From: Acidobacteriota bacterium
GTDB lineage: Bacteria; Acidobacteriota; Thermoanaerobaculia; Multivoradales; J023
NCBI GenBank assembly: GCA_029263395.1
Contig: JAJCXO010000278.1
Coordinates: 1 to 34,996, forward strand
Reading direction: 5' to 3'
Length of the DNA stretch: 34,996 nucleotides
Shown piece after piece: positions 14,967 through 19,377 of this stretch (positions are counted from its first letter, which is position 1; each line of letters begins with the position of its first letter). The notes under the pieces were generated by a model. The model was not told where the DNA came from, searched no databases, and saw nothing but the letters and a program-made list of their open reading frames with translations. The position numbers were made by a program, and so were the translations under genes.

Positions 14967-16616
14967 TCAGAAGATTTGCTTGCGTTCGGTCGAAGAAGGA
15001 ATGCCTAACTCGTCTCGATACTTAGCAACAGTCCGCCGGGCGATGTGAATCCCTTCGCGGTTGAGGATTCGCATCAACTCGCTGTCGGACAGGGGCTTCT
15101 TGGCATCTTCCCCCTGAATGAAATGCTCGATCTTGCGTTTGACAGTCAGTGATGAAATATCGCCACCATAGTCACGATCGATGCCGCTATGAAAAAAGAA
15201 CTTCATCGGCAGAAGACCGCGAGGTGTATGCATGTACTTGTTGGACACCACCCGACTAACCGTCGACTCGTGCATGTCGATATCTTCAGCGACATCTCGC
15301 AAAACCATCGGCCGCAGGTGCTCGACGCCGTGATCCAGAAAAGCCCGCTGTTGCTGAACGATCGAAGTAGCAACTTTGTAGATTGTGCGTTGCCGCTGAT
15401 CAAGGCTTTTGATGAGCCAGACAGCCGAGCGCATCTTGTCTTTAATGTACTGTTGAGCGTCTGCCTCGGATTTCTGCTCCCGCATAGCCTGTAGCATTTT
15501 GCGGTAGGCACGACTGACCCGAAGACGCGGTAGGCCGTTGTCATTCAACTGGACAACATAAGCGTCCGCCACTTTGACGATGTGGACGTCTGGCTCAACG
15601 TAGTGTGTACGATCGGTCGAGAACCTTCGGCCTGGACGCGTATCTAGGCGACTGATTGCCTCGACAGCAGGCTGCAAATCTTTAAGCGGAATCTCGAGGG
15701 ATTTGGCAATTGCTTCGAACTTGCGGCGCGTAAATTGTTCCCACTTCTCCGCAACAAGTAAGCGTGACAGCGAGTCTTCAGGCTCATTCTGGGCGTCGAG
15801 CTGACGCAACAGGCTCTCCTGCAGACTGCTACAGGCGATCCCTGGCGGCTCGAGTCCTTGGACACATTCCAAGGCTTCTTCGACAGAAGCTCGGCTGTAG
15901 CCGGCAATTTCTTCATCAACTTGATCGTCAGCGTCGACGAGTTCTTGAGAGGTGGCTTGATGCTCAGCGTCGCCGTGCATCTCGGCCTTGTCATGCTTTT
16001 CAACATCACCGTGATCGCCGTGCTTTTCGGCATCCCCGTGATCTTCAAGGCCACTTGAATCTTTAGCGCTGAGAGTGCTTTGGGTCCTATCAGCAACTTC
16101 TTCGATCGAACCACCGAACCCGTCGGCACCCATGGCCTGGATTTCCTCAATGGTTGCGACCAGAAACCCATCAGGATCCAGATTGCCGATGATCAACTCT
16201 GCAATCTCCCGCCGCAAGGGAGGAATGGACATCATGTGGAGTTGCCAGAGTAGATTGTCGTAGAGATCAGCCTCACGGCTCAGTGTATTCTCGAGTGGTG
16301 GCCCCTGGCGTTCTTCAAAGACCGAGGACTGGCCGGAGCCTTCCCAGCTTTCTGCGTAGTCGCTGAAAAAAGCGTCGAGATCGACGTCAGACAACGCGTC
16401 CTTCTCCGCCGGCTCTGAGTCGTCGGCAGCCTCAGGTACTGGGGCCTCGTCGACTGGTTCAGACTCTTCGAGAAGCGGATTCTCGACCATCTCCTGTGTG
16501 AGGACTCCCTCCAACTCGAGGCGAGTCATCTGCAACAGCTTGATCGCCTGCTGCAAAGAAGGCGTCATAACTAGCTTCTGAGCTAGTTTGAGAGACAGTT
16601 TCTGCTCAAGCGCCAT
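14967..16616 (-). CDS. rpoN: RNA polymerase sigma-54 factor with His-rich insert
   Basis: Alternative sigma factor recognising -24/-12 promoters and needing AAA+ activators. In 549 residues I see region I (LSLKLAQKLVMTPSLQQAI, 7-25), an acidic region II (about 50-95), and the core-binding domain. A DNA-binding domain with the HTH HESTVSRVVSNKYMHTP follows, and the RpoN box ARRTVAKYR is near the C-terminus. The protein is longer than the usual 450-500 because of an insert at about 165-240 within the core-binding domain. It is rich in His, Asp, Glu and Lys (six His between 193 and 219), built from imperfect repeats. The ATG is three bases after lptB and has no clear ribosome site, so translation may be coupled. 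The order lptB-rpoN-hpf-ptsN is conserved widely. Confidence 0.94.
   Translation of the reverse strand: MALEQKLSLKLAQKLVMTPSLQQAIKLLQMTRLELEGVLTQEMVENPLLEESEPVDEAPVPEAADDSEPAEKDALSDVDLDAFFSDYAESWEGSGQSSVFEERQGPPLENTLSREADLYDNLLWQLHMMSIPPLRREIAELIIGNLDPDGFLVATIEEIQAMGADGFGGSIEEVADRTQSTLSAKDSSGLEDHGDAEKHGDHGDVEKHDKAEMHGDAEHQATSQELVDADDQVDEEIAGYSRASVEEALECVQGLEPPGIACSSLQESLLRQLDAQNEPEDSLSRLLVAEKWEQFTRRKFEAIAKSLEIPLKDLQPAVEAISRLDTRPGRRFSTDRTHYVEPDVHIVKVADAYVVQLNDNGLPRLRVSRAYRKMLQAMREQKSEADAQQYIKDKMRSAVWLIKSLDQRQRTIYKVATSIVQQQRAFLDHGVEHLRPMVLRDVAEDIDMHESTVSRVVSNKYMHTPRGLLPMKFFFHSGIDRDYGGDISSLTVKRKIEHFIQGEDAKKPLSDSELMRILNREGIHIARRTVAKYRDELGIPSSTERKQIF
15957..16049 (-). repeat. short tandem repeats coding the His-rich sigma-54 insert
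   Basis: Two adjacent 27-nt units (15994-16020 and 16021-16047) match at 21 of 27 bases, and a partial third lies at about 15967-15993. They encode HGD/EKH-type repeats at rpoN residues 190-220. In-frame expansion of a short repeat explains the insert. Confidence 0.75.
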
Positions 16617-17379: not shown

Positions 17380-19377
17380 TCATGGTGTTGGCAATGCTGG
17401 GGCCCGGCTCCGGATCTGCACCGTTCCGGCGCCGAGGTTGTAGAGCAGATACTTACCCTCGAGTCGATTGCTCTGCGAGTCGAGCAACAAGACTTGCTCG
17501 CCGAAGACCTCTACCCTGTCTTCCGCTACAGTATAGACGGCTATGTCTCCTGAAATCCGACGATCGGCTTCTGGATCCACCATCTCAACGTTTCGACGGC
17601 ACGTCATCTCTTTGGCATCCTGACCATTGGGCTCGAGCTCAACCGATAACTCACCGCAAGTCAGTGTGCGTTTCTCCTGCTCCACTTTCACGTTGCCGGA
17701 GTAGATGACGACATTGTCGAGCCGGTGGTAAGACAGCAAGTCCGCCGTTACTTCAATCGACTGCTTTTCTCCGCTCGCACCGTTGGACTTGGGAGTCGTG
17801 AACCACAGCGACCGGACACCGCCGCTAGCCGACATCTCTTGTTTTGCCTGATCCGCTCGCAACTGTTCCGCGAGCAACAAATTTTCGCCACGCCATGCTC
17901 GGACACCGCCGGCGAAGGTGAACGAGGATGGCTCAGAAGTATAGAACGCTTCATCTGATTCCACCCGGATCGGTCCTCGGCCCTGACCGAACGGGGATTG
18001 CTCCAAGGCGATCGCGGTCCCTGGCTCCAAGCTAGCCCTCACCCCGGACTCTGCCCGAATCAACCCGCTCTTGCGAGAATAGGTGATGCGGGGCGCTGCC
18101 AGATCACCACGCTCACTAAACAACTCCACCTCCGGTCCTTCGATAACAACCTGGCCGCTAGCGATGCTGAGTTCTGCTTTCGAGCCGCCACTGAGATAGA
18201 CATCCTGATTCCACAACTCGACTTGGTCCTCCAGGAAAATCTGGCTGAGGCTACCGTCAGCCAAGAAGCGGGCACTGACCGAGTCCGCACACACCTGTCG
18301 CAGCGGGAATGGCCTTGGCATATCGAGAAACTCGTCAATTACCAGAGGAGCACCAGTACCGCGGATGAAAACAGGCTGGTCGTTTGTCATCTGGCTCTCC
18401 AGGTAACGCGCCCGCATCGCGCGCCCCAAACCGTCAGCATCGACTATCTTCAGGACAGCGGCTTTGGCGTCGCTACCATCGAGCTTGACCATCCGACTCG
18501 AGGGATCACCAGGAACAGGCTCCAGTTCCAAGGACTCACCAAGAAAATCAATACGTGTCTCACCGCCGAAATCGGTTGCCTTGCGTGCTGTTCCGCTGAC
18601 ATCGAATCGTGCTTGTAATGACCTCAGAGACTTCTGATCTTCTAGAAGATTGATCGTCAGGGCACGGGCCTTGAGCTCTTGGTTTCCAAAACGGATGAAC
18701 ACGTCGTCTCGGGCCCGAATCACACTCTCGCCTCGGCGGTAAACCAAGCGCTCGCAGTCTAGGCGCATCGGAATCTCCGCCCCGTCTACACTGCGAATAT
18801 GCACACCGCCGGAAAGGACGATAGTGTCTGTGAGACGATCAATTCTCAGCGCAGTTGCTCGCCCCTCCAGGTTGGGAGGATAACGAAACTCGACCGCACC
18901 TGAGCTGACCAGTAACTGGCCTCCGTGTTGTAAGTCGAAGGCTCGAGCCTCGAGCTCGAGATCACCCCACCCAGACACCACAACGTCACCTTCCAGACGT
19001 GCTTCTTGAGTCGCCTCATTGACTCGCGCGTTCTTACTCGTGACGCGGTAGGTCTCACCATCTTCGCGGAAAATATCCAGAATGACATTCTCGAGATAGG
19101 TTGTCTCTTCACGATCACGCAGATTACGCTCGGCTTGGATGTGGAAAACTGGTCGGCTGTCGATCGTGTGAACGAAAGTGAAACCTTCACCTGCAGTCAC
19201 GGCACCCTCGCCGGTCTGGGCCGCTGGCAAGTTCTCCTCATCGCCCTCGTCGAGCCCTGTCTTGCCGAACTGATAGGCGAAAAGCAGCAGGCCTACCGAG
19301 AATACTCCGAGTAGGCCAACGGCCAAGAGTATTCGGCGGATCCAAACCACTGGGTTTCGTGCTCGGACGACAGCCAC
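17380..19377 (-). CDS. LptC-LptA (OstA-like) fusion, periplasmic LPS bridge
   Basis: A 665-residue protein with one N-terminal transmembrane helix (about 12-36), where LptC is normally about 190 residues. After a short linker the LptC-like domain (about 60-250) contains the expected VENVILDIF/RVTSKNARVNEATQEARLEGDVVV type strands. OstA/LptA-like beta-jellyroll repeats follow, the clearest at about 565-660 with LLSYHRLDNVVIYSGNVKVEQEKRTLTCGELSVEL. A membrane anchor plus several jellyroll units could span the periplasm as one covalent bridge from LptFG toward LptD. No separate lptA is in the window. The GTG start follows the recJ TAA directly and has GAGG upstream; lptB follows by 31 bp. The fold assignment of the middle part (about 300-550) is less certain. 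Confidence 0.85.
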   Translation of the reverse strand: MAVVRARNPVVWIRRILLAVGLLGVFSVGLLLFAYQFGKTGLDEGDEENLPAAQTGEGAVTAGEGFTFVHTIDSRPVFHIQAERNLRDREETTYLENVILDIFREDGETYRVTSKNARVNEATQEARLEGDVVVSGWGDLELEARAFDLQHGGQLLVSSGAVEFRYPPNLEGRATALRIDRLTDTIVLSGGVHIRSVDGAEIPMRLDCERLVYRRGESVIRARDDVFIRFGNQELKARALTINLLEDQKSLRSLQARFDVSGTARKATDFGGETRIDFLGESLELEPVPGDPSSRMVKLDGSDAKAAVLKIVDADGLGRAMRARYLESQMTNDQPVFIRGTGAPLVIDEFLDMPRPFPLRQVCADSVSARFLADGSLSQIFLEDQVELWNQDVYLSGGSKAELSIASGQVVIEGPEVELFSERGDLAAPRITYSRKSGLIRAESGVRASLEPGTAIALEQSPFGQGRGPIRVESDEAFYTSEPSSFTFAGGVRAWRGENLLLAEQLRADQAKQEMSASGGVRSLWFTTPKSNGASGEKQSIEVTADLLSYHRLDNVVIYSGNVKVEQEKRTLTCGELSVELEPNGQDAKEMTCRRNVEMVDPEADRRISGDIAVYTVAEDRVEVFGEQVLLLDSQSNRLEGKYLLYNLGAGTVQIRSRAPALPTP

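Follow-up and report, generated by a model that had tools for sequence, protein, structure and literature searches.

Introduction

The closest described systems to the protein considered here are the sigma-54 chains 7qwp_M, 5nwt_M, and 8f1i_M, which carry the three domains PF00309, PF04963, and PF04552 in this order. The middle one of them, the core-binding domain (CBD), is located at the RNA exit according to the available parts of three articles (PMC7057263, PMC10786286, and PMC5505868), and the accessible text of one of these describes contacts of the CBD with α-CTD, the β flap, and the β′ zinc finger (PMC10786286). The same partial text names region II as the least conserved sigma-54 region in both sequence and length (PMC10786286). 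Region II is acidic, disordered, and variable in length, and in these respects it resembles the loop described below; however, it precedes the CBD, whereas the expanded loop lies within this domain. The parts available of the open-licence literature on sigma-54 make no mention of length variation at this CBD loop or of its repeated expansion. Membership of RpoN in its family is known, and the repeated expansion of the CBD loop is apparently new within that partly available literature.

Domain architecture and gene neighborhood

The window, meaning the whole stretch of DNA analyzed, is one contig of 34,996 bases from an assembly of 10.7 Mb. It contains the single rpoN copy found in its genome. 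The encoded RpoN exhibits the same domains in the same order as the three chains named above: PF00309 matches with 60.4 bits (cut-off 23.8), PF04963 with 165.2 bits in two stretches (cut-off 22.9), and PF04552 with 219.4 bits over its whole length (profile 1–160 of 160). The full-length model TIGR02395 scores 418.1 bits against a cut-off of 277.35; the six further NCBIfam models for sigma-54 also match, each short of its cut-off. By these profile matches, the protein is a plain and complete member of the sigma-54 family. All coordinates are collected in Table 1.

Table 1. Features of rpoN and of the expanded loop in the window.
Feature	Window position	Strand	Basis or remark
rpoN, sigma-54, 549 aa	14967..16616	minus	Pfam AID/CBD/DBD; TIGR02395
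Activator interacting domain (AID), residues 6–51	16464..16601	minus	PF00309
Core-binding domain (CBD), N-terminal piece	16128..16295	minus	PF04963 profile 2–57
Expanded loop, residues 163–237	15906..16130	minus	conserved edges; PF04963 gap; AF2 pLDDT; anchor spacing
His-rich acidic segment, residues 192–220, six His	15957..16043	minus	found in 1/72 genomes of the order
27-nt unit, copy 1 (DHGDAEKHG)	16017..16043	minus	
27-nt unit, copy 2 (DHGDVEKHD)	15990..16016	minus	22/27 identical to copy 1, hand count
CBD, C-terminal piece	15504..15902	minus	PF04963 profile 58–185
DNA-binding domain (DBD), residues 388–547	14976..15455	minus	PF04552

In transcription order, a gene matching LptC and LptA/LptD_N comes first, then an ABC ATPase gene, which by its position would be lptB, and then rpoN. 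It is followed by genes matching S30AE (hpf), PTS EIIA, HPr kinase, and RapZ, and the matches to these genes lie in the same order on the contig of a congener. The gene directly upstream of the ABC ATPase gene and rpoN (17380–19377, minus strand) encodes a 665-aa protein with an LptC-related match (89–136) and an LptA/LptD_N match (542–648), and looks like an LptC–LptA fusion. An open reading frame of 175 aa (15644–16171) overlaps rpoN in another frame. Elsewhere in the window, a 70-nt unit is repeated in tandem at 1715–1859 in about two copies (94% match), where two convergent open reading frames meet; each copy contains a hairpin-like GGGCTTCG...CGAAGCCC or CAAAGCCC stretch, and the repeat is perhaps a duplicated terminator.

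The expanded loop within the core-binding domain

The PF04963 match is split in two, with residues 164–238 (window 15903–16127) lying between the pieces. Conserved edges place the loop one residue earlier, so that it overlaps the N-terminal Pfam piece by one residue. An insert of about 75 residues in the CBD of RpoN, as claimed by an earlier note made from the sequence, is therefore real, and it is located at a helix–helix junction inside the domain. The same junction is visible in the comparison with 7qwp_M, where the match stops at query residue 168 (chain 191) and resumes at query residue 243 (chain 193). From anchor NLDPDGFL to anchor GLEPPGIA, the RpoN of the window has a spacing of 101, and the 7qwp chain has one of 29 (a hand count, with one chain residue unprinted). 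The earlier note had the insert interrupt the CBD; the Pfam match is indeed split, but the wording is too strong, since the extra residues widen a pre-existing loop between two helices. It had also called the insert rich in D, E, and K, which is correct for the acidic residues (D and E together 23 of 75) but not for lysine (4 of 75). Cysteine is absent from residues 163–237.

AlphaFold2 was run on 24 sequences and yielded a pTM of 0.38, at which the arrangement of the domains is not to be trusted. In the model, the loop joins CBD helices at residues 156–164 and 242–253. The pLDDT is 30–35 at residues 191–230, 42–58 at the loop ends, and 86–90 in the CBD flanks; it stays below 50 at residues 168–174 and 178–235, and an uncertain helix is predicted at residues 171–184. 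The loop is thus predicted to be disordered. The 33 best Foldseek rows are all sigma-54 chains with query TM-scores of 0.09–0.29, low values that are expected from the untrustworthy domain arrangement. In a relative of genus g7 (L076), the insert is predicted to open with a helix of 22 residues (pLDDT about 78–83), so that one and the same site would be partly ordered in one lineage but disordered in another. The loops of g7, including that of L076, contain a recurring AEVERYRAEVAIAREMAEAF-like stretch, which is helical in the L076 prediction.

The histidine-rich segment and its 27-nt repeat

All six histidines that had been noted in the insert are confirmed, at residues 193, 199, 202, 208, 214, and 219, and they fall within 29 residues. 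The other 520 residues of the protein contain 10, and the scan bound for such a cluster is about 0.009 for a segment that was picked after inspection. The spacings of the histidines (6, 3, 6, 6, and 5) track a repeated unit, unlike a kept ligand motif. Two copies of this 27-nt unit are clear and a third one is degenerate, the repeats spanning 54–81 of the 225 nt of the insert; to describe the whole insert as coded by 27-nt repeats was an overstatement. Tandem Repeats Finder called no repeat in window 15850–16200 even at a score of 30. When the codons of the insert were shuffled, only 2 of 2000 versions reached its observed self-match score; hence, the 27-nt duplication is probably real.

The His-rich piece was found in the window genome alone among 72 genomes of the order, and once within that genome. 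A query with a 48-residue peptide matches rpoN only. The 18-nt core of the repeat, allowing up to two mismatches, occurs at 106 places in the genome (G000) compared with 34 for a backward control, and eight of the places listed have 0–1 mismatches, two of them at the rpoN locus. A genome-wide repeat family for this core was considered and rejected, the excess of 106 over 34 notwithstanding.

Loop length across relatives

Anchor spacing was compared over 149 rows, composed of 72, 21, and 56. The 72 rows are from 74 matched genomes, leaving out G034 (gene part absent) and L058 (internal stop). The 21 rows derive from 30 loci matched with RpoN, mostly labeled Acidobacteriota with four Thermoanaerobaculia and a few others, after removal of L074–L079 (duplicate genomes) and of L095, L100, and L102 (truncated or broken). 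The 56 rows were hand-picked from 395 genomes, mostly one per family, and herein the four rows of family f24 and G188 were picked for their long-looking matches. Since rows were hand-picked, some for length, the proportion of long loops among them should not be read as a frequency. A plasmid search listed 15 records among 226.

The spacing is exactly 26 in 72 rows and 76–182 in 36, leaving 113 rows that have no long loop. Within the order, 31 of 66 rows have long spacings and the remaining ones 29–47; outside it, 5 of 83 rows have long spacings and 75 have 26–27. The five long rows outside the order comprise four f24 genomes and a second, divergent RpoN of G188. The latter (L171, G188:C217:700-2800) has a spacing of 103, and another rpoN match lies on a second contig of G188. 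On a quick tree built without the loop and region II, with many weak inner branches, some long branches, and two pairs of rows that are identical, the long state (60 or more) and the other state change into each other at least seven times, a minimum that cannot separate gain from loss. Loop length and region II length correlate with a Spearman coefficient of −0.26 over rows that are not independent.

Within the family of the window genome, rpoN was found in six of seven genomes (the window included), and all six carry a long loop, with a spacing of 101 in the window, 78 in the congener, and 92–121 in the four others. According to the earlier note, absence of the insert from close relatives together with free variation within the species, here represented by one genome, would indicate a neutral expansion. 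The congener lacks the His-rich part but does carry an expanded loop, of other sequence, as do the other rpoN-bearing genomes of the family. Elsewhere in the order, in another family, the loop of G049 (L057, G049:C1:1259200-1261800) lacks 31 residues that are kept by three sisters, while 489 of the 523 other aligned residues match L062; judged from the sisters, this gap would be a loss.

Among Nitrospirota, 115 of 118 genomes matched and no listed match was split at the loop, which is weak evidence as the aligner may bridge a modest insert. In the Nitrospirota genome G472, the rpoN match is broken across two contigs just past the loop. A further rpoN match in an assembly labeled Nitrospirae (L100, G441:C109:8716-10155) contains two in-frame TAG codons and is either a pseudogene, an error, or a case of recoding.

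Divergence and selection

Outside the loop, RpoN of the window and of the congener (one genome) are identical at 433 of 463 positions, by region 46/47 in the AID, 48/61 in region II, 55/59 and 124/134 in the N- and C-terminal pieces of the CBD, and 160/162 in the DBD. The congener loop has 52 residues with one histidine, of which 9 of 47 aligned are identical, with 23 gap columns. Between close relatives, the loop therefore diverges fast, in its length as well as in its sequence. A comparison of 13 window genes with the congener contig gave matches for 11, in one case along part of the gene only; rpoN shows 31 gap columns versus none in nine other genes and one in a tenth (local alignments, in which end gaps are invisible), which marks the loop as the length-variable place among the genes compared.

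In genus g7, the dN/dS of the loop is 0.41 (from 77 of 78 pairs) and 0.51 (from all 15 pairs), which exceeds the values of the five other regions, among them 0.05–0.15 in the CBD and DBD and 0.12–0.33 in region II; L008 (g7 group a) and the shortened L057 were omitted from the dN/dS analysis. For an f8 pair, the loop value is 0.28. Between window and congener it is 0.93 or 0.59 depending on the bounds, but with nearly unalignable residues and a high dS this value is not to lean on. From these ratios, selection on the loop appears relaxed rather than absent, with some purifying selection in g7.

Interpretation of the loop

The best explanation, with a probability of roughly 0.75, is that the loop is a tolerated, disordered, and acidic expansion at a length-variable site, which has been locally enriched in histidine by the 27-nt duplication. 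The protein would be an ordinary sigma-54 with an enlarged surface loop joining two CBD helices, and it should work as a normal sigma-54, a factor that binds core RNA polymerase and −24/−12 promoters, with this loop in the solvent. As sequence and length change fast, selection seems to demand little of it beyond, presumably, negative charge, low hydrophobicity, and a frame that stays open. At the RNA exit there could be room for an acidic loop exposed to solvent, and it would avoid sticking to nucleic acid. Tandem duplication of the 27-nt unit, whose repeat is visible in the DNA, would then have multiplied a His-containing acidic unit into the six-His stretch, and this repeat would be the newest, species-private addition to the tolerated expansion. 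The suggestion of a tolerated low-complexity expansion, raised in the earlier note, is thus supported by the divergent congener loop, by the restriction of the His-rich part to one genome, and by the shortened loop of G049. It is opposed by the ratios clearly below 1 in g7 and by that of f8, by the retention of a long loop in every rpoN-bearing genome of the family, and by charge: all 36 long loops are net acidic, and drift alone need not yield that.

The mean of these 36 is 0.139 net acidic charges per residue, in a comparison made without a matched null for linkers; the remainder of these proteins, region II excepted, is at about 0, and the least acidic long loop (L019) has barely any net charge, at 0.01. 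This charge is also what speaks for an acidic arm with a function close to the RNA exit, which would tune α-CTD contacts, the displacement of sigma-54, or the route taken by the nascent RNA, and in which charge and flexibility rather than sequence would be selected. The occurrence of long loops on several tree branches, the dN/dS below 1 in g7 and f8, the predicted L076 helix, and the position of the CBD at the RNA exit as given in the partial sources cited above are consistent with such an arm. Against it, G049 lacks 31 residues of the loop and 113 of the 149 rows have no long loop. Acidic disordered linkers are, moreover, common. A functional arm is for these reasons unlikely. A more far-reaching version, in which several Acidobacteriota lineages have separately made the CBD loop a flexible acidic arm close to the RNA exit and the His repeats of this species add a pH-dependent charge, appears decidedly improbable.

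A His-rich segment that binds metal or senses pH and renders sigma-54 responsive, as proposed in the earlier note, is suggested by six histidines in 29 residues among D and E. The His-rich metal-binding loops of zinc transporters come to mind, which are likewise His-rich and flexible; however, RpoN is no transporter, its histidines are not conserved, and metal binding is putative at most. The long loops contain no histidine in 10 cases, one in 16, two in six, and three in three, with six in the window alone, and the loops of the congener and the four other family genomes have 0–1, so that histidines are not conserved among relatives. Together with spacings that follow the repeat, the lack of cysteine, and the disorder of the model, this makes sensing very improbable; it was rejected as the best reading because only one genome yielded the His-rich part, and it has no support beyond composition. 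An artefact of assembly or frame is barely credible: the sequence stems from one assembly of 291 contigs, but the frame is open throughout, the flanks agree with the congener, the loop edges are conserved, and a long loop recurs in all six rpoN-bearing genomes of the family.

Implications for the sigma-54 family

The expansion presents the CBD loop as a repeated insertion point of sigma-54 and shows which part of the domain tolerates change. Because long, short, and shortened versions occur naturally in relatives, the function of the loop is directly testable. If the separately evolved acidic arm with its pH-dependent charge were true, the loop would join region II as a second regulatory element of variable form, adjusting promoter escape or α-CTD contacts. 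If an acidic arm affects promoter escape, it would constitute a new control point on sigma-54, a factor for which the variation noted in the available part of the literature is that of region II (PMC10786286).
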